Shown in pieces: positions 1,056 through 31,542 of a stretch of DNA of 35,079 nt. A model generated the notes under the pieces. It was not told the origin of the DNA and did not search any database. It worked only from the letters and a program-made list of their open reading frames with translations. Source of the stretch: Polyangiaceae bacterium (GTDB lineage: Bacteria > Myxococcota_A > Polyangia > Polyangiales > Polyangiaceae). The DNA is taken from positions 1-35,079 of the forward strand of contig JADLAB010000597.1 of NCBI GenBank assembly GCA_020848455.1. The letters run 5' to 3'. Positions within the stretch are counted from its first letter, which is position 1. Each line of letters opens with the position of its first letter. The translations under genes and the position numbers were made by a program.

Positions 1056-1144
1056 GGCGAGCAGCTCGGAACGGGGTGAGGGCCGGAGGTCGGGGGCTAC
1101 TATCCGTCGGCCGTGGCGCCGCTGGCTAACTTTTTGCGATCCTT

Positions 1145-1173: not shown

Positions 1174-1179
1174 TGGGGC

Positions 1180-1809
1180 GTGAGGACGATCGAGCTCGGC
1201 CTGTTCTTGGTGGCGCTCGCCGGCGCGGCGGGCTGCGGTGGCACCCCCACCGCGCCCTCGGAGGACGAGACCTTCTATCTGCACCAGCGCGGCGTCATCG
1301 ACAAGCGCGTCAGCTGGGAGAGCTACTTCCCGCCCCTCGACCGCGATGCGAGCACGCTCCTGCCGCGGCGCGTGGGCGTCGCGCTCTTCGGCGGGACGGT
1401 GCGCATGTCGCGGCCCATCGACTGGTACCTGCGCACGGCCGACAACACCCCGTCGGGCCGCCTCATCTCGTACCAGTCGCCGCGGCAGTTCCTGTTCTCG
1501 ATCTACGAGCGCACCGACCCGGAGGGCGACCCCTGGAGCGAGGTGCTCAAGCGCTACGAAGAGCAGGTCCAGAAGGACGGCGCGCAGATCGTGGCGGGCC
1601 GCATCCCCATCGCGACCTCGAACGCGCAGGGCCGCAGCTACTACATCAAGACGCCGGTGGCCTCGCGTCCCGACTACGAGAACTACTCGCACGAGATCCT
1701 GGTGCGCTCGAACCGCCGCGTGCTGCTCGTGCAGATCGTCCACCCGAAGGACATCGATGCCTCGGTGGACGAGATGAACGACGCCGTGCGCAGCCTGCTC
1801 GTCTACTGA
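1180..1809 (+). CDS. Lipoprotein of unknown function next to tssG (209 aa)
   Basis: I place the start at GTG 1180 because it gives a clean lipoprotein signal (VRTIELGLFLVALAGAAGC, lipidated Cys at residue 19). The frame is open upstream to 1054, but that extension overlaps the divergent gene and lacks signal character. The mature protein has no cysteines. Its C-terminal half (residues about 100-209) alternates short strands and ends in a helix, DEMNDAVRSLL, after a strand RRVLLVQIV. This layout recalls Mog1/PsbP/DcrB-like proteins, a comparison I hold only weakly. The stop is 25 bp from the convergent tssG stop, so association with the T6SS is plausible but unproven. Confidence 0.7.
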   Translation: MRTIELGLFLVALAGAAGCGGTPTAPSEDETFYLHQRGVIDKRVSWESYFPPLDRDASTLLPRRVGVALFGGTVRMSRPIDWYLRTADNTPSGRLISYQSPRQFLFSIYERTDPEGDPWSEVLKRYEEQVQKDGAQIVAGRIPIATSNAQGRSYYIKTPVASRPDYENYSHEILVRSNRRVLLVQIVHPKDIDASVDEMNDAVRSLLVY

Positions 1810-2887: not shown

Positions 2888-4653
2888 ATGAGCGTCAAGT
2901 TGCCGCTCTTCGGCTCCCATGTGTAGACGACCTTGGTGTTGGTGCCACGCGCGGTGAGCTGCGTGAAGCTGTTGAGCGACACGTAGGAAGCGAACATCTC
3001 GCTGAGGATGCTGGCGAAGAGGTACATCTCGCCCTCGCCCGCGAACCCGTTCTCGTCGAGCTCCACGTCGCAGGCGATCCCGCGGATCGGCGCGCCGCGG
3101 AACAGCCGGTCGGTGGGGCGCACCTTGACGCTCTTGATGGCGGCGATGCGCAGCTGGTTGGCGCGCGCTGCCTGGCGGTCGTAGAGCGCCTGGAAGTTGT
3201 AGACCTCGACGGTGGAGCGCAGCACCTCGAGCTCCGCGATCGAGCGGTAGCTCATGGCCATGTGCGCGAGCACGCGCCACTGCAGCTCGCGGCCGATCGG
3301 CGGCGGCAGGGGCTGGGTCACGCCCACGATGTTCTTGAAGCTCGCGACCGCGGGCGAGGTCGCCGTCGCCACATGGATGTCGCCCGTCTTCAGGTTGCCG
3401 GTGAGCGTGCGGTTCGTGCACGTCGCCTCGATGCTGATGACGTCGAACTCGGGAATGGTGCCGGCGTCCTGCGGTGTCCCGAACGACAGGTACACGTCGA
3501 CGCCCTCGCCGATGGTCGCCGGGCGAATGTGCGCCTGGTGAAAGACCGCGCGCGAGGCCGCCTCGGCGTTGAGCTCGTGCTGGAAGCTGAAGAAGTTGGG
3601 GATGTCGACCCGCTGGCTCGTGCGCCGCGCGATGCCCGTCACCCGGTCGACCGAGTAGATCTCGTACGCGTCGGGCGTGCCGCCGGCCGGTCGCGCCAGG
3701 TACTCGTGCTTGGTGAGGTCGGGCTTGATGGGGTCGGTGCTGTGCGCGAACAGGTTCACGACCGGCGCGCAGAAGAGCCGGAAGTTGTCCTTCTGCACGC
3801 GCGTGCCGGTGGGCAGGCCGTCGCGGAACTGCAAGAGGATCGCGAAGCGGTCGGTGAGCCGGTCGGTCGGCAGCTTCTCGAGGCCGCTGACGTCGAAGAA
3901 GGCGAACTTCTGCGGCAGCGTGAAGTACTCCTGCAGCAGGCGGAAGCCGGGGTAGACCGTCTTCGGGTAGGGGATGAGCGACTCCTGCTCGTCGAAGCCC
4001 GCGAGCTTGACGGCGCGGGGCGGGAGCGAGAGCACGATGGTGTCGTTGCCGGCCGAGTCGACGGCTGCGAACGACAAGGTCTCGACGTGCGCCCCCACCC
4101 ACAGGCGCAGATCGTCCTGCAGGCGCCGCTCGCCGTGGATGTAGAAGCGGATGTTCTGCAGGTTGAGCGCCGCGAACGCGGCCCCGCCCGTGACGCGCAT
4201 CTCGATGCGCAGGGTCTGGGCGAGCTGCGCGCCGGTGTCGACGCGCACGTTCTCGACCGCGAGCGGCATGAGCTCCACGTCCTGCGTGGTGCGGAACCGA
4301 CAGCTGGTCTGGTCGACGACCACCGACCCCACCTCGGCGCCGCGGCCGACGAGCACCTTCTCGCGCACCACGTTGGGCAGCGGCGAGAACTCGACGATCG
4401 AGGTCGCGGGGATCTGGCGCACGAAGTGCGGAAACAAGAGGGCGGCCACCGAGTGGATGACCTCGGGCACCTCGTCGTCGATCTTCTGGCGCAGCTTGCC
4501 CGTGAGGAAGGCCACGCCCTCGAGCAGGCGCTCCACGTCGGGGTCGCCGCCCACCTCGGCCAGCATCGGGGCGATGGCGGGGTACGCCGCAGCGAACTCG
4601 CGGCCGAGCTCGCGCAGGTAGGTGAGCTCGTCCTGGTAGTACTTGTTGAACAT
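2884..4653 (-). CDS. tssF: TssF, T6SS baseplate subunit
   Basis: TssF (ImpG/VasA) is the largest baseplate wedge protein and binds TssG and TssE. The 589-aa product starts MFNKYYQDELTYLRELG, the hallmark N-terminus of the family, followed by the conserved block LLEGVAFLTGKLRQKIDDE and PHFVRQIPA. Length is typical. The stop overlaps the tssG ATG by 4 nt. Upstream, 149 bp separate it from tssE, enough for its own promoter; TAGGGT at 4680-4675 (minus strand) lies 21 nt before the ATG and could be a -10, but no -35 is evident. Confidence 0.96.
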   Translation of the reverse strand: MFNKYYQDELTYLRELGREFAAAYPAIAPMLAEVGGDPDVERLLEGVAFLTGKLRQKIDDEVPEVIHSVAALLFPHFVRQIPATSIVEFSPLPNVVREKVLVGRGAEVGSVVVDQTSCRFRTTQDVELMPLAVENVRVDTGAQLAQTLRIEMRVTGGAAFAALNLQNIRFYIHGERRLQDDLRLWVGAHVETLSFAAVDSAGNDTIVLSLPPRAVKLAGFDEQESLIPYPKTVYPGFRLLQEYFTLPQKFAFFDVSGLEKLPTDRLTDRFAILLQFRDGLPTGTRVQKDNFRLFCAPVVNLFAHSTDPIKPDLTKHEYLARPAGGTPDAYEIYSVDRVTGIARRTSQRVDIPNFFSFQHELNAEAASRAVFHQAHIRPATIGEGVDVYLSFGTPQDAGTIPEFDVISIEATCTNRTLTGNLKTGDIHVATATSPAVASFKNIVGVTQPLPPPIGRELQWRVLAHMAMSYRSIAELEVLRSTVEVYNFQALYDRQAARANQLRIAAIKSVKVRPTDRLFRGAPIRGIACDVELDENGFAGEGEMYLFASILSEMFASYVSLNSFTQLTARGTNTKVVYTWEPKSGNLTLI

Positions 4654-4775
4654 GGAACGGCCGCCGCGCCGCCGACCCTAGCACGGCTCTTTCGTAAGGG
4701 GCGCGCCTTCTGCGCCGTTTTCGCGCGCTCCGCGGGCACGACGCGGCGCGCCGAAGCGCGCGCGGGGCCCGCCGC

Positions 4776-5318: not shown

Positions 5319-6242
5319 GTGAAGACCGTCTTCTTCTTCGCTGCCCTCGCGGTGACCGCCGTCGGCTGCGCCAGCGCCGAGCTTCCGCGGCCCGAGACCG
5401 CCACCCGTCAGGTGGTGCCGATCCCGGTGTGCACCAAGGGGCTCGCGCCGCCCAAGCGCGCCGCCGGCGGCAAGGCGGTCATGCGCTCGCTCGAGCCCGA
5501 GGAGTGGCTCGAGATCCTGGTGCCGAGCTACGAGGAGAAGCGCGCCTTCGACGGTCGCGAGCTCGACTGCACCGGCCACTACGTGTTTGCCAACGACGCC
5601 CTGCGCTGGGGCATTCCGGTCCGCGGCTCCTTCACCGAGGAAGGCAAGCCCCTCACGATCGAGCCCGACGTCGAGGTCGACGTGCACGCCGGGCCCGAGG
5701 GCATGCGCGTGCTGTGGATGCGCAGCCTGCGCTTCGAGAATGGCGACATCGGTGGGCCGCTCGCGCTCGTGCGCGCGATCGACGACCGCGCCGAGATCTA
5801 CGGTGTCGGCAGCTTCCGCGGTCCTGACACCACCAAGTTCGAGATGGCGCGTGTCGGCAGCGAGGCCGTGGTGGTGAGCCAGGAGAAGCGCTGCCCCGAC
5901 CAGTACAACTGTCGCAAGGTCGCCAATTTCTACCTCGCGCGGCGCGGTCGGCTGGTGCAGGCCGCGACGGCCGACGTCGACCGCATCGCCCGCATCCCCT
6001 GCGTCGCCGAGCGCGGCCTGTACTGCGAGTACAAGCTGCGCACGGACGTCACCTACGAGCCCGACGGCATTCACCTGCTCGAGCAGGTGCGCGTGAAGGT
6101 CGTCCCGACCGAGGCCAAGGGCGATCGCGACGGCGACCGCATGCTGCGCACGGCCGAGTTCACGCGCGTGCTCAAGGTGGAGCGCGACTCGCTCTTCTCG
6201 AGCAACGAGTCGCTCTGGGAGCGCATCGTCGGCCAGGAGTAG
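5319..6242 (+). CDS. Lipoprotein of unknown function within the T6SS locus (307 aa)
   Basis: The GTG at 5319 gives MKTVFFFAALAVTAVGC, a textbook lipoprotein signal with the lipobox AVGC (lipidated Cys17). The mature chain is about 290 residues with no transmembrane segment and several Cys (for example CPDQYNC, and the IPC and GLYC positions) that could form disulfides. It includes an LDCTGHYVFAND block and charged C-terminal helices. I recognise no family or active-site motif. It lies between tssE and the PAP2-like gene, transcribed away from tssE, so it may be a locus-specific envelope component. Its end converges on the PAP2-like gene across a large inverted repeat. Confidence 0.78.
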   Translation: MKTVFFFAALAVTAVGCASAELPRPETATRQVVPIPVCTKGLAPPKRAAGGKAVMRSLEPEEWLEILVPSYEEKRAFDGRELDCTGHYVFANDALRWGIPVRGSFTEEGKPLTIEPDVEVDVHAGPEGMRVLWMRSLRFENGDIGGPLALVRAIDDRAEIYGVGSFRGPDTTKFEMARVGSEAVVVSQEKRCPDQYNCRKVANFYLARRGRLVQAATADVDRIARIPCVAERGLYCEYKLRTDVTYEPDGIHLLEQVRVKVVPTEAKGDRDGDRMLRTAEFTRVLKVERDSLFSSNESLWERIVGQE

Positions 6243-6473: not shown

Positions 6474-7175
6474 TCACCAGCAGAAGAGCGTGTCGCCGTA
6501 GCCGCAGTTCGGCTCCTGCAGGAACGAGTAGGCGAGGCCGAGCACGCCGCCGAGGAGCATGCCCGGCACGACGCCGCCGATGATCTGCTCCGGGCTCTCG
6601 TGGGCGACGCCCGAGCCGTCGAGCCCCCGGCCGACCGAGGTCATGATCGCCGCCGCGAACGGCACGGCCACGTTGCCCACGAAGGCGCCGCCGTGGAACT
6701 CGCCGTTCGAGTACTTGAGGGTGTCGACGAGGAAGATCCCGAGGCCGCCGCCGAAGGCACCCCAGCTCGCGAACGACTGGGTCGAGAGCATGCCGAAGCT
6801 CTCGCATCCCGAGCCGGGGAGCTGCGCCGTCGTCATGTCGACCGTGCAGTCGGGGCGCGGCGCCTTGATGGCATTGCGGAGCGGCCCGTCGGCGAGGAGC
6901 GTGAGCCCCACCATCGACATGACCGGCGCGAGCGACGAGATGTGCCAGCGCGCCTTCCAGCCGACGGTCGCGTCCGGGCTCGCGTAGTAGATGCGGGGCA
7001 TCAGCGTCACCGAGGCGACGCCCACGCCCATCATCAGATTGGAGACAAGACCCCAGTTCGTGTCGCGCTCGACGAACGGGAGCGTGGTCTGCTGGGCGTG
7101 CGCTTCACCGGGCCAGAGCAGCGTAGCTCCGACGATCACACCCACTCCTGCTGCAATTGTTGCCCTGGTCCGCAT
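6474..7175 (-). CDS. Exported PAP2-like membrane protein, catalytic motifs degenerate
   Basis: The ATG at 7175 is preceded by a strong Shine-Dalgarno (GGGAGGT, 7192-7186); an upstream GTG at 7187 overlaps that site, so I reject it. The 233-aa product starts with a signal peptide ending AHAQ (residues 1-27), then several hydrophobic segments. IKAPRPDC resembles motif 1 of the type 2 phosphatidic acid phosphatase superfamily (K...RP). AHESPEQIIGG followed by a Gly-rich helix resembles motif 3 (H...D..AG). The motif 2 position (PSGH) reads LSTQSFAS, so the usual catalytic His is missing. PAP2 enzymes dephosphorylate lipid phosphates such as undecaprenyl diphosphate; this one may be inactive or changed. 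It lies 97 bp downstream of tagH on the same strand, probably co-transcribed. Confidence 0.6.
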   Translation of the reverse strand: MRTRATIAAGVGVIVGATLLWPGEAHAQQTTLPFVERDTNWGLVSNLMMGVGVASVTLMPRIYYASPDATVGWKARWHISSLAPVMSMVGLTLLADGPLRNAIKAPRPDCTVDMTTAQLPGSGCESFGMLSTQSFASWGAFGGGLGIFLVDTLKYSNGEFHGGAFVGNVAVPFAAAIMTSVGRGLDGSGVAHESPEQIIGGVVPGMLLGGVLGLAYSFLQEPNCGYGDTLFCW

Positions 7176-7272
7176 GCCTAGCGCCACCTCCCTGGTGTCG
7201 CGAAGAATTTGTCCCGCAGCTCGGCGCGCTGCGCGCTACGTGTCCGGTTCCTCGAGGTCGCCGAGCTCGCTT

Positions 7273-8574
7273 CTACCGCCGGGTCTGCTGGTTTGCGGAG
7301 GTGGCGTAGCGGGCGACGCCGCCGAGGCCCGCCTGCTCGCCCGAGGGCTGAAGCCCCTCGCCCGCGCTCGCAGCATAGGCCCGTGAGAACTGCGGGCCAA
7401 AAATGATCAGGAACGTCTCCTTGTCCTCGCCTGAATAGTCCCCGTGGCGCACTTCGTAAAGCTTCCACAGAGCCTCGTACTTGCTGGAGAACAGGCCGCC
7501 CTTCTTGCCCCGCTGCTCGTACTCCTGCTCGATCTGGCGCGGCGAGAGCTTCTGGAGCAGCTGCTTGACCCCTTCCATCACGCCGTTCATGAGCGCGACC
7601 TGGTGGGTCATCACCTCGACGAAGGTCTCTTGCAGGTGCTGCGGCGTCTGATGGTCCGCCGCCGGGCCGAACAGCGCGATCCCGAGCTCGCGGTGGTCCT
7701 TGGCCGCGGCCACGCGGTTGCCCTGCTCCTCGCGCTCGCGCCGCAGCACCTCGGTCTCGAAGGCCTGGTGGCCGTCGCGCAGCGAGACGAAGCAGCGCAG
7801 GAACACTTCCATCGCGTCGCGCAGGTTGCGCGCGAAGGCGAAGAGCTTCGGTACGTCGTCGGGCGGGGGCGTGTCCGGGGCGAAGGTGCGCGCCAGCTCG
7901 TGCACCGCGGCGAGCGCCGCGAGCGGCGCCGAGAGCTCGCCGTGGTCGTACACGGGCACGCCGTAGTACTGGCTGACCTTCTGGAAGTCCGCCTCTTGGC
8001 CGAGGGCTGGCTGCTCGAGCAGCAGGCGCCGCAGGTAGTTGCGCCGCACCTCGGGCGACAGGCGGGTGAGGTGCTCGTAGACGAGCCGGTACACGTTGGT
8101 CCACGCGGAGCGGTACGCCTCGGCGTAGGGCGCGAGCTGGCGCACGAACGGGTCTTCCTGGCCCGGCTGCGCCGGCGTCATGCGCGCCTTCTGCAGCTCG
8201 CTGCCGAGCGGCGTGCCGAGGTCGAGCACCGAGCCCTTGCGCCCGTCGCCCGCGCTCGCCTTCACGTCCTTGACGGCGAGCCGGATGACGATCGGGCCGA
8301 TGTTGATCTCGGGCGCCGCGGTCACGTCGACGAGCTGGTCGCGCACCAGGCGCTGCCCGCGGCAGAGCGTGCCGTTCGTCGAGCCCAGGTCCTTGATCAG
8401 GATCGCGTTGTCGCGCAGCTCGACCGAAGCGTGGAACTGCGAGATGTACGGCCGATCGACGTGCAGATCGTTCAGCTGGTTGCGCCCGATGCGGACCGGA
8501 AAACGCTCGTACTGCGCGTCGAAGCTCTGGCTGGTCTGCGTGTCGAGCACCTGGGCTGTGAGCGCGACCGACAT
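7273..8574 (-). CDS. tagH: TagH-type FHA-domain T6SS protein
   Basis: T6SS FHA proteins bind phosphothreonine and, in systems with a PpkA-type kinase, trigger post-translational activation. The 433-aa product has an N-terminal FHA domain (residues about 20-95) with the canonical residues G30-R31, S45...H48 and the STNGT motif with N67. A long helical T6SS-specific C-terminal domain follows (for example the SPRQIEQEYEQ and SSKYEALWKLYE segments). The ATG at 8574 is chosen because it starts directly before the FHA fold; the open frame upstream is arginine/proline-rich and unrelated. No kinase or phosphatase partner gene is in the window. It diverges from the transglycosylase gene across 256 bp. 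Confidence 0.93.
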   Translation of the reverse strand: MSVALTAQVLDTQTSQSFDAQYERFPVRIGRNQLNDLHVDRPYISQFHASVELRDNAILIKDLGSTNGTLCRGQRLVRDQLVDVTAAPEINIGPIVIRLAVKDVKASAGDGRKGSVLDLGTPLGSELQKARMTPAQPGQEDPFVRQLAPYAEAYRSAWTNVYRLVYEHLTRLSPEVRRNYLRRLLLEQPALGQEADFQKVSQYYGVPVYDHGELSAPLAALAAVHELARTFAPDTPPPDDVPKLFAFARNLRDAMEVFLRCFVSLRDGHQAFETEVLRREREEQGNRVAAAKDHRELGIALFGPAADHQTPQHLQETFVEVMTHQVALMNGVMEGVKQLLQKLSPRQIEQEYEQRGKKGGLFSSKYEALWKLYEVRHGDYSGEDKETFLIIFGPQFSRAYAASAGEGLQPSGEQAGLGGVARYATSANQQTRR

Positions 8575-8585
8575 GGGCGAGTTGC

Positions 8586-8591
8586 AGCCTA
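8586..8591 (-). promoter_or_regulatory. Candidate -10 hexamer TAGGCT before tagH
   Basis: GCTAGGCT on the minus strand is identical to the octamer before tssE; here 11 nt separate the hexamer from the ATG at 8574. A shared element would fit co-regulation of the two minus-strand T6SS groups. The evidence is only this identity and position. Confidence 0.28.
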
Positions 8592-8830
8592 GCAGAGGTG
8601 AACGGCCCTTCGCGAGCCCCCGCGGGCAGATTCCGTTGGGTGGTGCCCTCCGGCTCCCTCGCCGCTCGGCGGAGCCCCGAGACCTTCGCCCCCTTTGCCC
8701 CCGAACGGGGAAAGCCGAGCCCGAGATCGCTCCGGCCGTCGCGCGGGGCGCGCGCTCCACTTCGGTTTCTTCGTTCTTCGGTCGCGCACTTTGTTGGCCA
8801 GCTGTCCTACATGGTGCGAGGTTCGCCGAC

Positions 8831-10579
8831 ATGGTGTGGCTGCACAGGATCCCTCCGATGATCTCGGCTCTCGCGTTCGGCTACGGCGTCGGCATGGCCG
8901 CGCCCGAGGACGCCCTCGACAAGATGCGCCACGCGGTCGGCGGCGCCGAGACGGCGCCCGCCCACGCGAGTGCACGCGGGCACGAGCGGCGCGCCCCGGG
9001 CGCGCAGTCGCGGCGGCTGCCGTCCGACGGCTTCGAGACGGGGCTCTCCGGCGGCTCCGCGGCCCTCGGTCGGTGGCGCGACGAGCCCGACCGGCTCGCC
9101 GCGCTGCGACGCCGCGCCGCGAGCGGCCACGCGGCGAGCGGTGCCGCGCGCGACGACGCGGCGGGCGCCACCTCCTTCGAGGCGGATCTCGGCGACGGCG
9201 GCGACACCTTCCGCGACACCGACCGGCTCGACGACACGACGCAGGAGGCGCTGTCGCGGCTGCACCTGCCCGATCTGCGCGTTCCCATCACCCGCAAGGC
9301 TTTGGCCTACGTCCGCTTCCTCACGCGCAGCGAGCGGGGACGCGACATGTTCGAGACCTGGCTCAAGCGCAGCGGGCGCTTCCAGGACGTCATCCAGCAG
9401 CAGCTGCGCGAGTGGGCGCTGCCCGAGGACCTCATGTGGGTGGCGATGATCGAGAGCGGCTTCGACCCGCGCGCCAAGAGCCCGGCCGGGGCGGTGGGCC
9501 TGTGGCAGTTCATGCGGTCGACCGGCGAGGTGTACGATCTGCTCGTCAACAAGTACGTCGACGAGCGCAAGAACCCGGTCAAGGCCACGCGCGCGGCCGC
9601 CCACCACCTGCGCGATCTCTACCAGCGCTTCGGCTCGTGGGATCTGGCGCTCGCGGCCTACAACATGGGCTACGAGCAGCTGCTCGCCGCCATCGACCGT
9701 GCCGGCACCACCGACTTCTGGGAGCTGGCGCGCCAGCGCGTGCTGCCCTCCGAGACCTCGGCCTACGTGCCGAAGATCGTGGCCGCGGCGCTCGTCGCCA
9801 ACAACCTCGAGCGCTACGGCTTCGACGACGTGCGCGTGCTCAAGCCCTGGAGCGCGTCCGAGATGGGCGTGCCGCCGGGCACCTCGCTCCGGATGATCGC
9901 GCGCGCCGCCGACATCGGCCAGGACGAGCTGCGCAAGCTGAACCCGCACCTGCTCGGCAGCGTCGTGCCGCCGGGCGAGGGCAGCTACCAGATCTTCCTG
10001 CCGAACGACTCGCTCCCGCGCGTCCAGGCCGCGCTGCCGGCGATGCTCACCGACAAGCACGCCTACCGCGACGCCGCGGCGCTCGACCCGGTCGACGTCC
10101 TCGACGCCGCGAGCCGCCGCCGCGCCTGGGACGAGGACGAGAGCCTGCTCGCCCAGCTGCCCAAGCCCAAGCGCCGGAGCCTGCGCGCCGTGCTGCAGGA
10201 CCGGGACGATCCGCTCGGGGCCGAGTCGCTCGGCGGACAAGAGGCCGAGGAGCGGCTGGCCGACGAGCTCGACCCGGTGCGGCGCGGGCGCGAGACGGTC
10301 ATGTACCGCGTGGGCCCCGGCGACACGCTGATCGGCGTCGCCAAGCAGTTCGCGGTCGATCCGGACGACGTCGCGCGCGACAACGGTCTAGCCCCGGGCG
10401 CCGAGCTCAAGGAAGGCGCGCTCGTCAAGGTCAGCGTCAAGAAGGAGGTGCTCGCGCGCTTCCGCACCCGGCGCGGCGAGGCGCCCGCTGTGAGCGCCCC
10501 GCGCGCCGACGACGGCGACGCGCTCGCGCCCACGAAGCCAGGCAAGACCGCCCGCCGCAAGGGGCACGACAAGTCGTGA
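8831..10579 (+). CDS. MltD-like lytic murein transglycosylase with LysM domain
   Basis: Lytic transglycosylases cleave the MurNAc-GlcNAc bond of peptidoglycan, forming 1,6-anhydroMurNAc. The 582-aa product has a short hydrophobic N-terminus (signal or anchor), a poorly conserved Ala/Arg-rich region to about residue 150, and an SLT domain. The SLT motif LMWVAMIESGF carries the catalytic Glu208, followed by GAVGLWQFM and the AAYNMGYE motif. A degenerate LysM-like segment lies at about 346-396 and a better LysM (YRVGPGDTL) at 491-536; the C-terminus is basic. ATG 8831 has GCGAGG upstream; ATG 8858 (AGGA upstream) is an alternative. It is the first plus-strand gene before tssH, 253 bp away. A role in opening the cell wall for T6SS assembly is inferred from position. 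Confidence 0.88.
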   Translation: MVWLHRIPPMISALAFGYGVGMAAPEDALDKMRHAVGGAETAPAHASARGHERRAPGAQSRRLPSDGFETGLSGGSAALGRWRDEPDRLAALRRRAASGHAASGAARDDAAGATSFEADLGDGGDTFRDTDRLDDTTQEALSRLHLPDLRVPITRKALAYVRFLTRSERGRDMFETWLKRSGRFQDVIQQQLREWALPEDLMWVAMIESGFDPRAKSPAGAVGLWQFMRSTGEVYDLLVNKYVDERKNPVKATRAAAHHLRDLYQRFGSWDLALAAYNMGYEQLLAAIDRAGTTDFWELARQRVLPSETSAYVPKIVAAALVANNLERYGFDDVRVLKPWSASEMGVPPGTSLRMIARAADIGQDELRKLNPHLLGSVVPPGEGSYQIFLPNDSLPRVQAALPAMLTDKHAYRDAAALDPVDVLDAASRRRAWDEDESLLAQLPKPKRRSLRAVLQDRDDPLGAESLGGQEAEERLADELDPVRRGRETVMYRVGPGDTLIGVAKQFAVDPDDVARDNGLAPGAELKEGALVKVSVKKEVLARFRTRRGEAPAVSAPRADDGDALAPTKPGKTARRKGHDKS

Positions 10580-10832: not shown

Positions 10833-13505
10833 ATGATGCTCGTCGAACCGAAATCGATCATCAAGCGCCTCACGCGCGTGTGCACGAGCGCGCTCGAGTC
10901 CGCGGTGGTGCAGTGCGTGAACATGCGCCACTACGAGGTGACGGTGGAGCATCTGCTCGCCGCGCTACTCGACAACCCGGATTCGGACGTGGCGTTCCTC
11001 GCCATGCACTACGACCTGAACCCGGAGCGCTTGAAGACGACGCTGCAGCGCTCGCTGCAGGATCTGCGCTCCGGCAACGCGGGCAAGCCGACCTTCTCGC
11101 CCACGATGCTCGAGTGGTTCCAGGACGCTTGGGTCATCGGCTCGGTCGACTACGCCTACGGCAAGGTGCGCAGCGGCGTGCTGTTCCTGCGCTTCGTGCA
11201 GCAGCCGACCAAGTACTCGATGAGCGGCATCGGCATGCAGCTCGAGGGCGTGCCGAAGGACGAGCTGCGCCAGAAGCTGCCCGAGATCGTCGCCGGCTCG
11301 AAGGAAGACAGCGAGGCGGGCTCGCTCACGGTCGGCGGCGCGCCCGGTCTCGGCGGCGCCGGCGGCGTGCCTGCCGGCATGGCGAGCGCCGGCGCGGACA
11401 CGGCGCTCGGCAAGTTCTGCGTCGACTTCACCGGCAAGGCGCGCGCGGGCGAGATCGATCCCATCTTCGGGCGCGAGCGCGAGATCCGCCAGATGATCGA
11501 CATCCTGGCGCGGCGTCGCAAGAACAACCCCATCGTCATCGGCGAGGCGGGAGTCGGCAAGACGGCCCTCGTCGAGGGCCTCGCGCTGCTCATCGCGCAG
11601 GGCCAGGTCCCGCCGCTGCTCCAGGGCGTCGAGATCCTGGGCCTCGACCTCGGCCTGCTGCAGGCCGGCGCGGGCGTGAAGGGCGAGTTCGAGAACCGCA
11701 TCAAGCAGGTCATCGCCGAGGTGAAGGCCTCGCCGAAGCCCATCATCATGTTCATCGACGAGGCGCACCAGCTCATCGCCGCGGGCGGGGGCGGGGGCGA
11801 CGCCGCGAACCTCTTGAAGCCGGCCCTGGCGCGCGGCGAGCTGCGCACGATCGCGGCCACGACCTACAGCGAGTACAAGAAGCACATCGAGAAGGACGCC
11901 GCGCTCGAGCGCCGCTTCCAGCCGGTGCGCGTCGACGAGCCGAGCGAGCAGGTGGCCGTCACGATGCTGCGCGGCCTGCGCCCGAAGTTCGAGGCCGCGC
12001 ACAACGTCATCATCCAGGATCAGGCGGTCATCGCCACGGTGCGCCTCTCGGCGCGCTACCTCTCCGGGCGCCAGCTCCCGGACAAGGCGGTCGATCTGCT
12101 CGACACCTGCGCGGCGCGCGTCAAGGTCGCGCTCCAGCAGAAGCCCGCGGCGGTCGAGGACGCCGAGGTCAAGATGGCCAACCTCGGGCGCGAGATCGAG
12201 GCCCTCTCGAAGGACCGCGCGGCCGGCATCCACGTCGACGAGGTCCACTTCGGCGAGCTGCAGACGGCGCTCGAGGAGACCAAGGGGCAGCACCAGACCC
12301 TCAAGGAAGAGTACGAGAAGGAGCTCGCCGGCACCCAGAAGGTCATCGACGCCCGCAAGCGCATGGCCGACGCCAAGACCGACGCCGAGAAGGACGCCAT
12401 CCGCAAGGAGGTCTCCGCGGCCATCGACGAGCTCGTGGCGAGCCAGGGCGACACGCCGCTCATCCGTCCCGACGTCGACGAGGCGATGGTGGCCAACGTC
12501 GTGAGCGCGTGGACCGGCGTGCCGGTCGGCAAGATGGTCGCCGACGACGTCGCGGCCCTGCTCGGCATGGAGAAGCTCCTGACCGAGCGCATCAAGGGTC
12601 AGGACTACGCCATCCACCACATCGCCAAGGAGCTTCGCAGCGCGCGCGCCGGGCTGAAGCCGCCCGAGCAGCCGCTCGGCGTGTTCATCCTCGTCGGCCC
12701 GTCGGGCGTCGGCAAGACGGAGACCGCGCTCGGCCTCGCCGATCTCCTGTTCGGCGGCGAGCGCATGATGGTCACCATCAACATGAGCGAGTTCCAGGAG
12801 AAGCACACGGTCTCCCGGCTCATCGGCTCGCCGCCCGGCTACGTCGGCTACGGCGAGGGCGGCATGCTCACCGAGGCGGTGCGCCACCGGCCGTACACCG
12901 TGGTTCTGCTCGACGAGTGCGAGAAGGCCGACCCCGACGTCATGAACCTGTTCTACCAGGTCTTCGACAAGGGCATGTTGAGCGACGGCGAAGGGCGCGA
13001 GGTCGACTTCAAGAACACCGTCGTCATCATGACGAGCAACCTCGCCACCGACAAGATCACCAACATGACGGTGGCCGCCTGGGAAGAGGGCGAAGAGGTG
13101 AACATGCCGGAGCTGATGGCCGCCATCAAGCCGACGCTCGTGGCGCACTTCAAGCCCGCCCTCTTGGCGCGCATGACGATGCTGCCGTTCTTGCCGATCT
13201 CGCCCACGGCGCTCGGGGCGATCACGCGCCTCAAGCTCGACAAGCTCATCAAGCGCATCAAGGCGACCCAGAAGGTCGAAGCGAAGTACACCGACAAGGT
13301 CGTCAACCTCATCGCGAGCCGCTGCACCGAGGTCGACACCGGCGCGCGCAACATCGATCACATCCTGCGGGCCACGCTCATTCCCCAGCTGTCGAGCACC
13401 GTGCTCGAGCAGATGGCCACGGGCGAGGTCCCCAAGTTCTTGACCATCGACGTCGACGAGCACAACGAGTTCAAGGCGACCTTCTCGAACGAGGCTGTCA
13501 GCTGA
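10833..13505 (+). CDS. tssH: TssH (ClpV), sheath-recycling AAA+ ATPase
   Basis: ClpV disassembles the contracted TssB-TssC sheath by ATP-driven threading. The 890-aa product has an N-terminal Clp-N domain (about 1-160), a Gly/Ala-rich linker, a first AAA+ module with Walker A GEAGVGKT (237-244) and Walker B IIMFIDEAH, a coiled-coil middle domain, and a second module with Walker A GPSGVGKT (622-629) and Walker B VVLLDECEKA, then a ClpB-type C-terminal domain. Length is typical of the family. A GGGAGG Shine-Dalgarno (10816-10821) precedes tandem ATG codons at 10833 and 10836. It leads the structural T6SS genes, with tssJ 42 bp downstream. Confidence 0.97.
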   Translation: MMLVEPKSIIKRLTRVCTSALESAVVQCVNMRHYEVTVEHLLAALLDNPDSDVAFLAMHYDLNPERLKTTLQRSLQDLRSGNAGKPTFSPTMLEWFQDAWVIGSVDYAYGKVRSGVLFLRFVQQPTKYSMSGIGMQLEGVPKDELRQKLPEIVAGSKEDSEAGSLTVGGAPGLGGAGGVPAGMASAGADTALGKFCVDFTGKARAGEIDPIFGREREIRQMIDILARRRKNNPIVIGEAGVGKTALVEGLALLIAQGQVPPLLQGVEILGLDLGLLQAGAGVKGEFENRIKQVIAEVKASPKPIIMFIDEAHQLIAAGGGGGDAANLLKPALARGELRTIAATTYSEYKKHIEKDAALERRFQPVRVDEPSEQVAVTMLRGLRPKFEAAHNVIIQDQAVIATVRLSARYLSGRQLPDKAVDLLDTCAARVKVALQQKPAAVEDAEVKMANLGREIEALSKDRAAGIHVDEVHFGELQTALEETKGQHQTLKEEYEKELAGTQKVIDARKRMADAKTDAEKDAIRKEVSAAIDELVASQGDTPLIRPDVDEAMVANVVSAWTGVPVGKMVADDVAALLGMEKLLTERIKGQDYAIHHIAKELRSARAGLKPPEQPLGVFILVGPSGVGKTETALGLADLLFGGERMMVTINMSEFQEKHTVSRLIGSPPGYVGYGEGGMLTEAVRHRPYTVVLLDECEKADPDVMNLFYQVFDKGMLSDGEGREVDFKNTVVIMTSNLATDKITNMTVAAWEEGEEVNMPELMAAIKPTLVAHFKPALLARMTMLPFLPISPTALGAITRLKLDKLIKRIKATQKVEAKYTDKVVNLIASRCTEVDTGARNIDHILRATLIPQLSSTVLEQMATGEVPKFLTIDVDEHNEFKATFSNEAVS

Positions 13506-22312: not shown

Positions 22313-23971
22313 ATGGGTGTCGAAGAAGTACTGGCAGAGGCGAAGGCACGGATCGAGGAGCTGTGCGCTCCGATCAACGGCGGGGTCGGCGAGGACGTCT
22401 CGTACAACGAGAAGTTCGAGGCGATGAAGACCGAGACCGAGAAGCTGTCGTCGCTGACGGGCGAGACGGTCAACTGGTCGAACGTCGAGACGTTCGCGGT
22501 CGAGCTCTTGAGCGAGAAGACCAAGGACTTCCGCGTCGCCTGCTACTTCGCGGCCGCCAAGGGCCGCACCGGCAAGGTGAGCGATCTGCTCGACGGCCTG
22601 ATGGTGCTCGACGAGCTGCAGAAGGCGTTCTGGGACACGATGCACCCGCCGGCGAAGCGCATGCGCGCGCGCGCGGGCATCTTCCAGTGGTTCATCGAGA
22701 CCACGGGCCCGACGGCGATGGAGCTGAAGGTGTCGGTGCGCGACTACGACACCGTCCAGGCGCTCGACCAGGTGTCGCGCGACCTCGACACCGCGCTGCG
22801 CGAGAAGATGGGCGAAGCGTACCCGGGCCTCGGCAAGCTGCGCGAGGCGACGCGCCACCTCGTCGGGACCTGCCCGAAGCCGGCCCCGCCCGCGCCGCCG
22901 CCCGAGGCGGCACCCGCGGGGGGCGAGGCGCAGGTCTACACGCCCGAGGAGCCGCAGGTCTACATCCCGGAGCCCGAGCCGGGCATGATGTACGGCGGCG
23001 GAGGCGGCGACGTCGTCAACGTGGGGATGGTCGCCGACGCCGACCAGGCGCTCGAGGCCCTCGGCAAGGCGCGCACGCTCGTCACGCACATCGCGAGCCT
23101 GCTGCGCCAGGCGAGGCCCGAGAACCCGGCCGCCTACCGCTTGCTGCGCGCCGCCCTGTGGATCGAGCTCCAGGACCCGCCCGCCGTCGTCGACGGCAAC
23201 ACGATGCTCCCGCCGCCCAACTGGGAGTACGTGGCGCGCTTCGAGGCGCTCGTCGCTGCCGAGGACTGGCTCACGCTCATCCACGAGGCCGAGGCCGCCG
23301 CGATCGAGTGCCCGATGTGGCTCGATCCGCACCGCTACACCGCGCTGGCGATGGACCGGGCCGGCTTCCAGTTCAACAAGGCGAAGAAGGCCCTCGTCTA
23401 CGAGATGGCGGTGCTGATCGCCCGCTTCCCCACGCTGGCGAACCTCACCTTCAACACGGGCGAGCCCTACGCGAGCCCGCAGACGAAGATGTGGCTCGAG
23501 AGCGAGGTCTCGGCCGTGCTCTCGGCTGGTGGCGGCAAGGGCGGCGGCGTGTCGAGCTCGCTCGAGGAGCCGCTCGGGCAGGCCAAGAGCCTCGTCGTGC
23601 AAGGCAAGCTCGGCGAGGCGGTCGACCTCTTGGGGCGCGCCGTCGCCACGGCTCCGACGCCGGCCGAGCGCTTCCGGGGCAAGCTCGCCCTGGCGCAGCT
23701 GTGTCTGCGGGCCGGCAAGCTCGACGTGGCGCGCGCGCAGCTCGAGGGCCTGCACAAGCAGATCGAGGCTCACCACCTCACGGCCTGGGAGCCCGGCCTG
23801 TGTGGTGAGGTGTACGCAGCCCTGTACGCCGCGCACCAGGGTCTGAACGCGGCCGGCGCCGCCACGCCGGAGGCCTGGGCGGCGCAGCAGGCGGCCTTCG
23901 AGCGGCTGTGCCAGCTCGATCCGGCGGCGGCCCTGAAGCTCGCCGGCGAGGCCCCGCCGCCGGCGGCCTGA
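22313..23971 (+). CDS. tssA: TssA, T6SS sheath cap/assembly protein
   Basis: TssA proteins prime tube-sheath polymerisation at the baseplate or sheath end. The 552-aa product has the N-terminal ImpA domain (about 1-190) with the hallmark DVSYNEKFEAMKTE and a PPAKRMRARAGIFQW segment. A Pro/Glu and Gly-rich linker (about 190-235, including GGGGGD) follows, then a long C-terminal VasJ-like helical region with ENPAAYRLLRAALW and FNTGEPYASPQTKMWL. This layout is that of TssA classes with a VasJ C-terminus. GGGAG lies 11 nt before the ATG. tssB follows after 157 bp. Confidence 0.94.
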   Translation: MGVEEVLAEAKARIEELCAPINGGVGEDVSYNEKFEAMKTETEKLSSLTGETVNWSNVETFAVELLSEKTKDFRVACYFAAAKGRTGKVSDLLDGLMVLDELQKAFWDTMHPPAKRMRARAGIFQWFIETTGPTAMELKVSVRDYDTVQALDQVSRDLDTALREKMGEAYPGLGKLREATRHLVGTCPKPAPPAPPPEAAPAGGEAQVYTPEEPQVYIPEPEPGMMYGGGGGDVVNVGMVADADQALEALGKARTLVTHIASLLRQARPENPAAYRLLRAALWIELQDPPAVVDGNTMLPPPNWEYVARFEALVAAEDWLTLIHEAEAAAIECPMWLDPHRYTALAMDRAGFQFNKAKKALVYEMAVLIARFPTLANLTFNTGEPYASPQTKMWLESEVSAVLSAGGGKGGGVSSSLEEPLGQAKSLVVQGKLGEAVDLLGRAVATAPTPAERFRGKLALAQLCLRAGKLDVARAQLEGLHKQIEAHHLTAWEPGLCGEVYAALYAAHQGLNAAGAATPEAWAAQQAAFERLCQLDPAAALKLAGEAPPPAA

Positions 23972-24128: not shown

Positions 24129-24623
24129 ATGGGTAAGGAAGGATCAGTCGCTCCCAAGGAGCGCGTGAACATCGTCTACAAGCCAGCCACCGGCGACGCA
24201 CAGGAGGAGGTCGAGCTTCCCCTCAAGATGCTGTTCATGGGCGATTTCACCCAGCGTGCGGACCCTCGGCCCCTCGAGGAGCGCAAGCCGATCAACATCG
24301 ACAAGGACAACTTCAACAAGGTCATGGGCGAGCAGAAGCTCAGCCTTGGCTTCTCCGTCGCCGACAAGCTGAGCGAGGAGGAGGGCAACGAGCTCAACGT
24401 GAATCTGCGCTTCCGCCGTCTCAGCGACATGGAGCCGGAAGCCATCGCGCAGCAGGTGCCCGAGCTGAAGAAGCTGCTCGATCTGCGGGCCGCGCTCTCG
24501 GCCCTGAAGGGCCCGCTCGGCAACGAGAAGGCGTTCCGCAACAAGATCCAGAGCATTCTGAGCGACCCCGGCCAGCGCAACCGGATCATCAACGAGCTCG
24601 GCCTGAGGAAGGAAGGGGAGTGA
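24129..24623 (+). CDS. tssB: TssB, T6SS sheath small subunit
   Basis: TssB (VipA) pairs with TssC to build the contractile sheath. The 164-aa product begins MGKEGSVAPKERVNIVYKPATGD, the usual family start, followed by ELPLKMLFMGDF and the conserved DKDNFNKVMGEQKLSL. Length is standard. The ATG at 24129 has AAGGAG about 9 nt upstream (24114-24119); the frame upstream to 24036 is not part of the gene. tssC starts 3 nt after the stop, so the two are co-translated. The 157-bp gap before it contains TAGATT and TATGCT hexamers around 24019-24033 that might be promoter elements. Confidence 0.97.
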   Translation: MGKEGSVAPKERVNIVYKPATGDAQEEVELPLKMLFMGDFTQRADPRPLEERKPINIDKDNFNKVMGEQKLSLGFSVADKLSEEEGNELNVNLRFRRLSDMEPEAIAQQVPELKKLLDLRAALSALKGPLGNEKAFRNKIQSILSDPGQRNRIINELGLRKEGE

Positions 24624-24626
24624 GCC

Positions 24627-26108
24627 ATGTCCAACACGCAGTCTGAAGGCCAAGCTGGGTCACAGACCCTCGAGAGCACGTCGCTACTCGACGAGATCCT
24701 CTCGGAAACGAAGCTCACGCCCGGTGACGAGGGCTACCAGATCGCCAAGGCCGGTGTGCAGGCGTTCATCGCCGAGCTCATCCAGCCGAAGCGCGAAGGC
24801 GAGCGCATCGACAAGGCGCTGGTCGACGCGATGATCGCGGAGATCGACGCGAAGCTGTCGCGTCAGATCGACGAGATCCTCCACAACCCGACCTTCCAGA
24901 AGCTCGAGAGCGTCTGGCGCGGCCTCAAGTTCGTCATCGATCGCACGAACTTCCGCGAGAACATCAAGGTCGAGCTGCTCAACGTCTCGAAGGAAGATCT
25001 GCTCACGGACTTCGAGGACTCCCCCGAGATCCCGAAGAGCGGCCTCTACAAGATCGCGTACTCGGCGGAGTACGGCCAGTTCGGCGGTCGCCCCTACGGT
25101 CTCATCGTCGCCAACTACGACTTCGGGCCGGGCCCGCAGGACATGACCCTGCTCGCCAACTGCGGTGCGGTCGCCTGCATGGCGCACGCGCCGTTCATCG
25201 CGGCGGCGGGGCCGCAGTTCTTCGGGCTCGACGACTACCTCAACCTGCCGAACCTGAAGGACCTGAAGGCGATCTTCGAGGGCCCGCAGTACACGAAGTG
25301 GCAGAGCTTCCGCGAGAGCGAGGACTCGCGCTACGTCGGCCTCTGCATGCCGCGCTTCCTCTTGCGCCTGCCGTACGGCTCCAACACCGTGCCGGTCAAG
25401 GCGTTCAACTACGAGGAGCAACTGGTCGGCGAGCACCACAAGTACCTGTGGGGCAGCGCGGCCATGGCGTTCGCCACGCGCGTGGCCGACAGCTTCGCCA
25501 AGTACCGCTGGTGCCCGAACATCATCGGGCCCCAGGCCGGCGGCACGGTCGAGGACCTGCCCCTGCACCAGTACGAGGCGATGGGCGAGATCCAGACCAA
25601 GATCCCGACCGAGATCATGCTGACGGAGCGGCGCGAGTACGAGCTGTCGGAAGAGGGCTTCATCGGCCTCACCTTCCGCAAGGACTCGGACAACGCCTGC
25701 TTCTTCTCGGCCAACAGCTGCCAGAAGGCGAAGTACTTCGGGCAGAGCGAGGAAGGCCGCGAGGCGGAGCTCAACTTCCGTCTCGGCACGCAGCTGCCTT
25801 ACCTCTTCATCATCTGCCGGCTGGCGCACTACATCAAGGTGCTGCAGCGCGAGCAGATCGGCAGCTGGAAGGAGAAGAGCGACCTCGAGAGCGAGCTCAA
25901 CAAGTGGATCAGCCAGTACGTGGCCGACCAGGACGTCGTCTCGCCCGCGATCAAGAGCCGTCGCCCGCTCCGCAAGGCCGCCATCACGGTCCAGGACGTG
26001 CCGGGCAACGCCGGCTGGTACAAGGTCGACATGAAGGTGCGCCCGCACTTCAAGTACATGGGCGCCTTCTTCACGCTCGGCCTCGTCGGCAAGCTCGACA
26101 AGCAGTGA
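24627..26108 (+). CDS. tssC: TssC, T6SS sheath large subunit
   Basis: TssC (VipB) is the large sheath protein and carries the ClpV-recognition helix near its N-terminus; STSLLDEILSETKL (residues 17-30) fits that element. The 493-aa product shows the family blocks NPTFQKLESVWRGLKFV, IVANYDFG, GPQFFGLDDY, RFLLRLPYG and NIIGPQAGGTVEDLP. Length is typical. GGGGAGTGA precedes the ATG. The gene ends the T6SS operon; two GNRA-loop hairpins and a T-rich stretch follow the stop. Confidence 0.98.
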   Translation: MSNTQSEGQAGSQTLESTSLLDEILSETKLTPGDEGYQIAKAGVQAFIAELIQPKREGERIDKALVDAMIAEIDAKLSRQIDEILHNPTFQKLESVWRGLKFVIDRTNFRENIKVELLNVSKEDLLTDFEDSPEIPKSGLYKIAYSAEYGQFGGRPYGLIVANYDFGPGPQDMTLLANCGAVACMAHAPFIAAAGPQFFGLDDYLNLPNLKDLKAIFEGPQYTKWQSFRESEDSRYVGLCMPRFLLRLPYGSNTVPVKAFNYEEQLVGEHHKYLWGSAAMAFATRVADSFAKYRWCPNIIGPQAGGTVEDLPLHQYEAMGEIQTKIPTEIMLTERREYELSEEGFIGLTFRKDSDNACFFSANSCQKAKYFGQSEEGREAELNFRLGTQLPYLFIICRLAHYIKVLQREQIGSWKEKSDLESELNKWISQYVADQDVVSPAIKSRRPLRKAAITVQDVPGNAGWYKVDMKVRPHFKYMGAFFTLGLVGKLDKQ

Positions 26109-26196: not shown

Positions 26197-26303
26197 GTGG
26201 TCAGTCGTCAGGCGTCAGTTGTCAGGCAGACGAGAGGGCCCTGCCCCGGCACGCTCCTGCTCGGAGCGGCCCACAGGGCCGGCGGACTGACGACTGACGA
26301 CTG
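26197..26303. repeat. Heptamer arrays (GTYGTCA) in inverted arrangement between convergent genes
   Basis: Left arm units GTGGTCA, GTCGTCA, GGCGTCA, GTTGTCA (26197-26224); right arm TGACGAC, TGACGAC and flanks (26285-26303). The arms match at 17 of 19 positions (26202-26220 with 26285-26303), with about 64 nt between them. The region separates tssC from the convergent fused sheath gene. The unit is of the same family as that in the 31420-31542 repeat. Confidence 0.8.
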
Positions 26304-26321
26304 CGCGGCGCTGCGCCGCGC
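26303..26321 (-). terminator. Hairpin at the end of the tssBC-fusion gene
   Basis: GCGCGGCG-CTG-CGCCGCGC, a perfect 8-bp stem with a 3-nt loop, touches the TAG stop (26321-26323, minus strand). No T-run follows on the minus strand, so termination is uncertain. Confidence 0.4.
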
Positions 26322-28342
26322 TAACCGCCGAGCGGGACGTCGAGCGACAGCTCCTCGAGGGCGACGCCGAGGAAGCGGCGCGGGCGCACGTGGACGCCGA
26401 CGACCGGCGCCGTCCCCTCGCCGTGCACCTGGATCGAGACCTCGGGGCCGGAGGGAGGTGCGACCTCGAACAGCTCCGTGAGCGCGGCCTCCATCACCTG
26501 CTTCACCTCGCCGGGGTCGCTCTCGGGCGGGATCTTGCCGGCGAGGGCGAACAGGAACTGCGCCAGGCGCGCGACGAAGAGCTGGTCGTTGAGGCCGATG
26601 CGCGGCAGCCGCACCTCGGGCTCGGTCGAGGCGCCCTCGTAGGTGCGCTTGGGCGGCGTCACGTAGGCCGTGGGGGCCGAGAGCACGTGCGCCGTGTCCG
26701 TGTTCGGCAGGCAGGCGAGCACGAGCACCCCGAAGCGCCCGAGCGCGCTCTGCGACTCGACCGAGACGAGCGCCTCGGTCGGGATGGCGACCTTCTCGTT
26801 GCCCTCGTAGGCGAGCACGATCTCGCGGACGGGCAGGTCGTCGAGTGCGCCGCCCGTGCGCGCGCCGACGATGCGGCAGGGCCAGCTCGTCTTCTTGAAG
26901 CTCTGCACCACGAGCGCCGCGACGGCCCAGCTCGCGTTGAGCCACACGTAGGCCGAGGCGTCGTTCGGCGCCTCCTCGATGACCAGCTGGCGCATGCGCG
27001 AGGACTGCTTGTCGAAGGGCGCGCGGCCGAGGAAGCGGTTCGCCGCGAGACACACCCAGCGCGCGGGCAGCTTCTCGACGACGGCGCGGTACGGGGCGCG
27101 CTCCTTGGCTTCGTAGAGGGACGCCTTGTTGTCCAGCCGCTCGACGCCCTCCCAGTCCTCGAGGCCGAAGATGCGGGGCGCGGCGTTGAGCACGACCGGC
27201 ATCGTGTGGGCCTCGGCGCACGCGGCGATCTCGCGCAGCCGGCCGAGCGAGGCGGCGCTGTCGTCGATGGCGAGGTCGACGACGGCGAAGGACACGGGCG
27301 GCTCGCTCGCGGCGTTGGCGCGCACGCCGCGCTCGAGCGCCGCGACCGTCTCGTCGGGACGCGCGCACAAGAGCTCGAGGCGCACGCCCTGCTGCCCGCC
27401 GATCGTGCGGGCGCAGAGGAACTGCAGCCCGCGCCACGCCTCCTCGAGGCGCCGCACCTCGGGGTGCTGGAGGATCGCGCCGAGCTGCAGGCCGATGGCC
27501 TTCTCGATGCGGCGGATGCCCTCGTCGGGTCGCGCCCCCGGGGCGCTCGTCTTGCCGGCGCGCGCGATGGCGGCGATGAAGGCGTCGAAGCGGCCCTTCT
27601 GGGCCTTGGGGGCCGCGACCGGGGCAGGGGCCTCGACCGGGCCGCCGGCCACGCTCGTGGCGTCGGCCGGGGTGCCGGTGTCGACCATGTCGAGCAGGCG
27701 CGAGACGTCCACCTCCTGGGCCGCGGGCGCGGGCGCGGGTGCGGGCGCGGGCGCGCCAGCGGGGCGCGCGAGCTCGACCCCGCCGAGCACGTGGCGCACG
27801 AAGGGCGCGCCGAGCCACAGGCGGTTGAGCTCGTTCGTGGCCTGCTCCACGCTCGTGGTGCCGTCGCGCAGGCGCTCGAGCACGAGCTTGCCGTCGACGA
27901 GCGAGCGCAAGAGCGGCACCTCGTCGCACAGGCCGTCGGGCCGGAAGCTCTTCATGCTGCCGGGCGCGAGCTCGATCTTCACCTTGCGTCCCTCGGCCAG
28001 CACGCTCTCGACCTCGATGGCGATGCGCGGGCGCAGGCGCTTGAACACCTCGTCGAACTCGGTGACGTCGATGCGCAGGGCCTGCGCGGGTGCGCTCGCG
28101 CCGGCGTTGTACTCGCCCCGCGGCAAGAGGTCGGCGACCACGAGCACGCGCAGCGGCATGAGCGGCCCGCGCTCGGCGCCGTCGTCGTCGCGCCGCGCGC
28201 TGACCGACACGCCCTTGTCCCCGGCCCTCTCGCTGCCCTTCTCGCCAGGTTTGCCGCTCGCCGCTTGCTGCGACCGGCTCCCCATGCCGAACGAGATACC
28301 CCCGAGATCGAAGCCCTTCTTGTCGTCGTCGCCCTGGCTCAC
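26321..28342 (-). CDS. Fused TssB-TssC-like sheath protein (673 aa)
   Basis: One open frame joins both sheath subunits. Residues about 1-60 are polar and disordered-looking. Residues 61-185 resemble TssB: MPLRVLVVADLLPRGEY matches the LPLKMLFMGDF block, and IDVTEFDEVFKRLRP matches IDKDNFNKVMGEQ. Residues 190-250 are a Pro/Ala linker containing SRLLDMVDT, similar to the LLDEIL helix of TssC. Residues 251-673 resemble TssC: HPEVRRLEEAWRGLQFL, PRIFGLEDW, NRFLGRAPF and RIVGARTGGALDDLP. The TssC-like half is shorter than canonical TssC. I choose GTG 28342, which has TATGCT 8 nt upstream; ATG 28285 (654 aa) is the alternative. It converges on tssC and diverges from hom. It may be a specialised sheath, cap or anchor element; its role is unknown. 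Confidence 0.88.
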   Translation of the reverse strand: MSQGDDDKKGFDLGGISFGMGSRSQQAASGKPGEKGSERAGDKGVSVSARRDDDGAERGPLMPLRVLVVADLLPRGEYNAGASAPAQALRIDVTEFDEVFKRLRPRIAIEVESVLAEGRKVKIELAPGSMKSFRPDGLCDEVPLLRSLVDGKLVLERLRDGTTSVEQATNELNRLWLGAPFVRHVLGGVELARPAGAPAPAPAPAPAAQEVDVSRLLDMVDTGTPADATSVAGGPVEAPAPVAAPKAQKGRFDAFIAAIARAGKTSAPGARPDEGIRRIEKAIGLQLGAILQHPEVRRLEEAWRGLQFLCARTIGGQQGVRLELLCARPDETVAALERGVRANAASEPPVSFAVVDLAIDDSAASLGRLREIAACAEAHTMPVVLNAAPRIFGLEDWEGVERLDNKASLYEAKERAPYRAVVEKLPARWVCLAANRFLGRAPFDKQSSRMRQLVIEEAPNDASAYVWLNASWAVAALVVQSFKKTSWPCRIVGARTGGALDDLPVREIVLAYEGNEKVAIPTEALVSVESQSALGRFGVLVLACLPNTDTAHVLSAPTAYVTPPKRTYEGASTEPEVRLPRIGLNDQLFVARLAQFLFALAGKIPPESDPGEVKQVMEAALTELFEVAPPSGPEVSIQVHGEGTAPVVGVHVRPRRFLGVALEELSLDVPLGG

Positions 28343-31419: not shown

Positions 31420-31542
31420 AGTTGTCAGTTATCAGTTGTCAGTTATCAGTCAGAAGGCAGAGGTTGGATTCGGCCGCTGGCCGCTCCGGGGCTGAGGACG
31501 ACTGACGACTGACTGATAACTGACAACTGATAACTGACAACT
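31420..31542. repeat. Perfect 34-bp inverted repeat made of GTTRTCA heptamers
   Basis: The left arm 31420-31453 is A followed by GTTGTCA, GTTATCA, GTTGTCA, GTTATCA, GTCAG. The right arm 31509-31542 is its exact reverse complement. A 55-nt unique spacer separates the arms, and a further TGACGAC unit lies at 31503-31509. It fills the 131-bp gap between a plus-strand lipoprotein gene and the convergent phosphohexomutase gene. As RNA either strand would fold into a very stable hairpin, so a bidirectional transcript boundary is likely. The arms are strikingly AT-rich for this genome. It starts 2 bp after the lipoprotein stop. Confidence 0.92.

Follow-up and report, generated by a model that had tools for sequence, protein, structure and literature searches.

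The stretch of DNA analysed here (35,079 nucleotides of a Polyangiaceae bacterium, contig JADLAB010000597.1; hereafter the window) carries a type VI secretion system (T6SS) locus, in which a single gene, a tssB-tssC fusion (26321–28342, minus strand), encodes a 673-aa protein with both sheath subunit folds, TssB (VipA) and TssC (VipB), in one chain. The open reading frame (ORF) runs from a GTG at 28342 to a stop at 26321; the frame stays open further 5′ of this GTG because the sequence is G+C-rich, and the starts of orthologues coincide with the GTG. Intact canonical tssB (24129–24623; PF05591, E 2.5e-56; TIGR03358, 182.7 bits) and tssC (24627–26108; TIGR03355, 699 bits; with an LLDEIL ClpV motif and a PF18945 domain) lie on the plus strand, convergent with the fused gene, and both products score far over the NCBIfam equivalog cut-offs. 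Only two VipB-family (PF05943) genes are found in the whole genome, i.e., the canonical tssC and the fusion.

The fused gene was assigned by Pfam, NCBIfam, profile-profile comparison, and orthologues. A TssB/VipA-like domain occupies residues 50–175 (27818–28195, minus strand; PF05591, E 2.8e-15, 56.9 bits against a gathering score of 24) and a TssC/VipB N-terminal domain occupies residues 274–559 (26666–27523, minus strand; PF05943, E 5e-46, 157.6 bits against a gathering score of 27). Profile-profile comparison gave the same two folds (TssB, E 3.9e-15; TssC, E 3.7e-36), and solved TssB and TssC chains in the PDB match the corresponding parts of the protein. Both NCBIfam equivalog models cover the same stretches as the Pfam domains, at scores below their cut-offs (TIGR03358 for TssB, 53.5 bits, cut-off 97.25; TIGR03355 for TssC, 156.5 bits, cut-off 271.5). 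Near the N terminus, the motif GGISFGMGS (28277–28303, minus strand) tentatively aligns with RVNIVYKP of canonical TssB, i.e., with the TssB N-terminal arm strand, in alignments and in a forced global hhalign, and a low-complexity stretch of ~36 residues (28169–28276, minus strand, from the alignments) leads from there to the TssB core. The two folds are joined by a Pro/Ala linker at about residues 191–270 (27533–27772, minus strand, from sequence and alignment) that contains VSRLLDMVDTG (27674–27706, minus strand), and the chain ends with a region (26324–26665, minus strand) collinear with TssC domain 1, the handshake domain.

The original prediction had read this gene as a natural, diverged TssB-TssC fusion that is extra to an intact tssB/tssC pair on the opposite strand, and each of these points is borne out: both Pfam domains exceed their gathering cut-offs in one ORF, Pfam and NCBIfam confirm the separate pair, and the divergence is seen both in the equivalog scores and in a rate of change ~4.4-fold faster than that of TssC. 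Two of the refuting conditions it named were checked and did not hold, since the TssB profile matches residues 50–175 and the gene is present in the T6SS loci of relatives from several Myxococcota classes. A merge or frameshift artefact, which it had likewise dismissed, is ruled out because intact tssB and tssC adjoin the gene and single-ORF orthologues exist in many genomes.

The family searches covered Myxococcota genomes (379, together with 46 chosen genomes, with neighbourhoods and Pfam scans of the matches) and plasmids. Full-length single-ORF orthologues were recovered in the same family and order at 31–58% identity, and at 97% within the genus; diverged fusions were also found in further families and other classes of Myxococcota. 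The fusion is present in 35/63 Myxococcota genomes with a strong sheath-profile match, which is a lower bound as incomplete genomes and diverged copies can escape, and canonical TssC matches are present in all fusion-bearing genomes (G329 was checked separately). The TssB half is weak in diverged members (Pfam E 0.15 to 1e-12) and lies below Pfam detection in the fusions of L139 and G375. An apparent truncation in G375, which could be taken for gene loss, was rejected: an intact diverged fusion, of which only the TssC part reaches Pfam, sits directly after the FHA gene. At L139 (9287–12016), the fused relative lies in a 910-aa frame with ~384 extra residues before the match, part of which may be untranslated.

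The proteobacterial fusions surfaced only when a member of one clade (clade E) was used as the query; with the window protein as the query, the plasmid search returned canonical tssB/tssC pairs among the matches listed. The clade-E query found single-ORF fusions on plasmids of Leisingera, Phaeobacter, Ruegeria, Parasedimentitalea, Qingshengfaniella, and Eleftheria, i.e., Rhodobacterales and one betaproteobacterium, where they sit inside T6SS clusters under the NCBI label 'contractile sheath large subunit'. Pfam detected both domains in the three plasmid fusions scanned, with VipA slightly under the cut-off in Phaeobacter. The C-terminal end DMDAELxALLxxL is common to the Phaeobacter, Eleftheria, and Qingshengfaniella fusions, and the last of these (L156:2459–5650) is 1063 aa long with 11 LDDLL-type elements (strict pattern), most of them in a long acidic N-terminal region. 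A search of IMG/VR returned no relative.

In a tree of the TssC part, one branch separates 31 fusions from 34 canonical TssC proteins (95/91). The fusions remain grouped when five proteobacterial TssC proteins are added (98/96), and all fusions stay apart from all TssC when the proteobacterial fusions and the second TssC of Rhizobium are included (99/96); the window fusion does not group with TssC and lies on the opposite side of this last branch. The trees are unrooted with long branches, and, because of these branches and a root that is not fixed, a single origin of the fusions is favoured, not proved; the favoured reading of the trees is that the fusions would be a single ancient lineage of sheath paralogues in the T6SS. 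The fused protein is co-inherited with the rest of the system: across 22 genomes, fused and canonical TssC distances are strongly correlated (Mantel r 0.89, 0/2000 permutations), the former being about 4.4 times the latter. The ratio of nonsynonymous to synonymous substitution rates (dN/dS) is 0.16–0.23 between close fusion pairs (0.16 for the window gene and its nearest relative) and 0.62 for the more distant pair of the window and G025.

In relatives, the fused gene often follows an FHA gene on the same strand, ending an operon headed by the FHA homologue; at L042, L045, L047, L048, L052, L053, L089, and L092 the order is the FHA gene, then a homologue of orf6474 or orf5319 of the window (both described below), then the fused gene. 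In f16 (L091, L094), the fused gene comes directly after tssB-tssC-tssA, at L134 it is divergent from tssA, and in the window's own family it is usually convergent with tssC and adjoins a homoserine dehydrogenase gene.

The original prediction went further and saw in the fusion an additional sheath protomer that would make up a special ring. This is not supported as stated, for the TssC handshake domain, the TssB arm, or both are missing from part of the family. In the sheath, every protomer extends two strands into the neighbouring ring on its baseplate side, one from the N terminus of TssB and one from the C terminus of TssC, and the strands of the first ring are thought to be accepted by TssE (PMC5813253, PMC5807055); lengthening the VipA N-terminal linker by at least 2 residues blocks contraction (PMC5797969). 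In the alignments, the N-terminal motif is retained in the window clade, and its spacing to the core is ~36 residues in the window, 40 in G025, and roughly 10–22 in most aligned f1 and f8 relatives. Members of f3, f6, f16, f43, and f59 are without the TssB N-terminal arm and start just before the second TssB strand. At the other end, no Pfam match of PF18945 to the window fusion was obtained up to E 1, and hhalign of its C-terminal ~95 residues with TssC domain 1 reached only E 0.02 over 14 columns. In clade E, 7/7 aligned proteins stop at one place, before TssC domain 1, and at three clade-E loci the neighbouring gene leaves this domain no room. The fusion at L053:8386–10242 has a C-terminal end, GLSGGSVGFDASLG, which resembles the GG..FG motif at the N terminus of window-clade proteins.

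The residues known to matter for assembly are changed as well. In Vibrio cholerae, a K223A change in VipB prevents sheath assembly and D333A prevents contraction (PMC5797969). The equivalents are changed in most fusions, which fits poorly with an ordinary sheath-protomer role: the residue at the K223 position is basic in 31/35 canonical TssC and 4/35 fusions, that at the D333 position is acidic in 31/35 and 9/35, respectively, and the window fusion has P and V at these two positions. VipB numbering was transferred via the PDB chains, with chain 3j9g_B taken to end at VipB residue 492, upon which K and D fit. An ordinary lattice subunit is a poor fit for lineages in which arms are missing and the K223 and D333 equivalents are changed. 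Judging from the alignments, the heterodimer core and the linker are conserved, and it is the weaving and contraction equipment that is variable.

The conserved linker holds a further element. LLDEIM of VipB is the ClpV docking site (PMC4239648), and the fusion linkers, including those of clade E, carry an LLDxI helix that profile alignment (hhalign) places on the TssC ClpV motif; in the window fusion it is VSRLLDMVDTG that aligns with the LLDEI helix of TssC. The motif is enriched over shuffles, at p<0.05 in 16/35 fusions and at p<0.01 in 8/35, and is a putative ClpV contact.

Outside the window clade at least, a conserved core and linker with variable weaving parts are better explained by a docking, non-contractile pseudo-protomer than by an ordinary lattice subunit. 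The reading we prefer, to which we give a probability of about 0.4, is that the fusion acts as a low-copy, non-contractile pseudo-protomer that engages ClpV. Its TssB/TssC core would mimic a sheath subunit and dock either on the exposed end of a sheath or on the platform for its assembly (the TssA, baseplate, or FHA side), where it would not be woven into the lattice and would not undergo the contraction rearrangement; it may thereby set the place or time of sheath start or stop, and ClpV would remove it by way of the LLDxI helix. We infer the docking site, the low copy number, the capping or gating role, and the actual ClpV binding from the features above. Within the window clade, a starter or cap ring is possible. 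More tentatively, such pseudo-protomers may form a widespread class, older than the sampled TssC diversity, whose arms have been repeatedly shed and whose members cap or gate sheath initiation, termination, or ClpV access.

Several points weigh against the pseudo-protomer. The docking modes are without structural support, as the AlphaFold2 model, built from four sequences, has a predicted local distance difference test score (pLDDT) of 34. In the window clade, the C-terminal region is of the right length and has a conserved VRPRRFLG..LEE, which would be expected if strands were still exchanged. The counts for the K223 and D333 positions are per sequence and ignore kinship. The LLDxI motif has p 0.036 in the window fusion and p>0.05 in over half of the members, in a shuffle test that ignores relatedness among the fusions.

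The retained N-terminal motif of the window clade and its conserved C-terminal region at the handshake position are what an unlikely but serious alternative builds on, i.e., that the fusion is integrated into the lattice as a special ring, most likely a baseplate-proximal starter, in which covalent linkage fixes the stoichiometry and the C-terminal strands reach TssE below with canonical TssBC above. It would suit such a ring that protomers direct their strands toward the baseplate, TssE being the presumed acceptor for the first ring (PMC5813253), that in relatives the gene shares an operon with the FHA gene, and that PVC/AFP injection systems have several sheath proteins, AlgoCIS having one (PMC8894135). 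However, clade E is without domain 1, several families are without the TssB arm, and even in the window the C-terminal region is unrecognisable as domain 1 and the K223 and D333 equivalents are changed.

The helix that recurs in the flexible linker, including that of the armless clade E, can be read in another manner: the fusion may act away from the sheath, as a soluble adaptor or decoy for ClpV that looks like a released protomer and adjusts the pace of disassembly, like TagJ, which bridges ClpV and TssB in Pseudomonas aeruginosa H1. The further LDDLL elements of proteobacterial relatives, with the 11 of Qingshengfaniella, point the same way. We regard this as rather improbable, because a whole TssB plus TssC core exceeds what an adaptor needs, and many members have a weak motif, the predicted ClpV binding being putative throughout. 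A second, independent sheath made of single-chain subunits only, as in phage and extracellular contractile injection system (eCIS) sheaths, is very improbable: the window-clade chain does hold every part of a TssBC protomer, but the remaining T6SS genes are present at the locus in a single set only, the genome has just the two PF05943 matches mentioned above, and the handshake parts are missing from many members. That the fusion is a decaying, functionless duplicate, as its divergence faster than TssC might suggest, we practically dismiss, given dN/dS of 0.16–0.23 between close pairs, long-term retention across classes and phyla, covariation with TssC, and close relatives in which frequent stop codons were not seen.

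Compared with known components, the fusion resembles TssB/VipA and TssC/VipB in having both folds in order, a TssC-type LLDxI helix at the junction, and a place in a T6SS locus; unlike them, it is one chain, below the equivalog cut-offs, in a clade of its own beside intact tssB/tssC, and, unlike TssC, it has a domain 1 that is unrecognisable or absent and changed residues at key assembly and contraction positions. TssC40 and the second TssC of the Agrobacterium and Rhizobium imp loci likewise add a TssC-family protein to a single T6SS; the two TssC of A. tumefaciens are non-redundant, and TssB and TssC41 accumulate without TssC40 (PMC3702570). Membership of the fused family was ruled out for the Rhizobium second TssC (used for the comparison rather than Atu4340) by the tree and Pfam: unlike the fusion, it is a stand-alone protein with no TssB part, has PF18945, and lies within canonical TssC. 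The eCIS sheath proteins Afp2-4 and Pvc2-4 are, like the fusion, single-chain with several paralogues per machine (PMC8894135), but they belong to systems without TssB/TssC. TagJ/HsiE1, a T6SS accessory protein that connects ClpV with the sheath, shares the predicted ClpV link and differs in having another fold and no TssBC core. UWS82030.1 (Phaeobacter) and WP_301260645.1 (Eleftheria) are of the same fused lineage as the window protein; both are of the clade-E type with acidic tails and are annotated as TssC, their TssB part unmentioned.

No description of a TssB-TssC fusion of a T6SS was found in the open-access literature (subscription journals and preprints being outside this scope), in agreement with what had been predicted. 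The folds themselves are already known, and it is their single-chain T6SS form that seems new; the fusion is likely to be an accessory part, so far undescribed, with a role in capping or controlling the sheath, and not one of its ordinary bricks. It bears on the unsettled question of how T6SS sheaths start, stop, and are capped: in V. cholerae, it could not be decided whether density at the distal end of the sheath stems from TssA or from sheath subunits (PMC5813253), and a natural TssB-TssC chain that has kept the core and lost weaving arms would be a probe for these steps, present also in marine Rhodobacterales (Phaeobacter, Leisingera). Some genes labelled 'contractile sheath large subunit' are seemingly not sheath large subunits, so T6SS typing by TssC is affected.

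The window contains a single T6SS locus with tssG, tssF, tssE, FHA, transglycosylase, clpV, tssJ, tssK, tssL, tssM, tagF, tssA, tssB, and tssC; four hcp genes lie outside it. tssA (22313–23971, plus strand) was assigned by Pfam and NCBIfam profiles, and clpV (tssH; 10833–13505, plus strand) by TIGR03345 (1136 bits). The FHA-domain T6SS protein, of the TagH/Fha type (7273–8832, minus strand; PF00498, PF20232), has the first ATG of its frame as its annotated start. orf6474, a conserved membrane protein (6474–7187, minus strand), is flanked in relatives by the FHA gene and the fused gene, and orf5319, a conserved putative lipoprotein (5319–6242, plus strand), adjoins the fused gene in relatives (f3, f6, f8); both are without an assigned Pfam function and conserved in relatives' T6SS loci, as are two more proteins at 477–1055 (minus strand) and 1054–1809 (plus strand). 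A transglycosylase SLT and LysM protein (8180–10579, plus strand) within the locus is retained in relatives. A TssF-TssG fusion suggested by the frame at 1835–4684 was rejected as an open-frame artefact, tssF and tssG being separate overlapping genes.

In the T6SS loci L142, L143, and L145, two tssK genes flank a TssC (453–751 aa frame) of a separate TssC clade, and at L144:8685–11622 (G301) tssC matches fall on two ORFs ~1.3 kb apart, which is an insertion, G354 being similar. The dodecamer GTCAGTCGTCAG occurs in the window at 26200–26211 (plus strand), 26287–26298 (minus strand), and 31502–31513 (minus strand), the first two as a facing pair between the convergent tssC and fused gene; the genome contains 58 exact copies of this dispersed repeat, frequently in tandem with 7-bp steps, and 0 of the reversed control.
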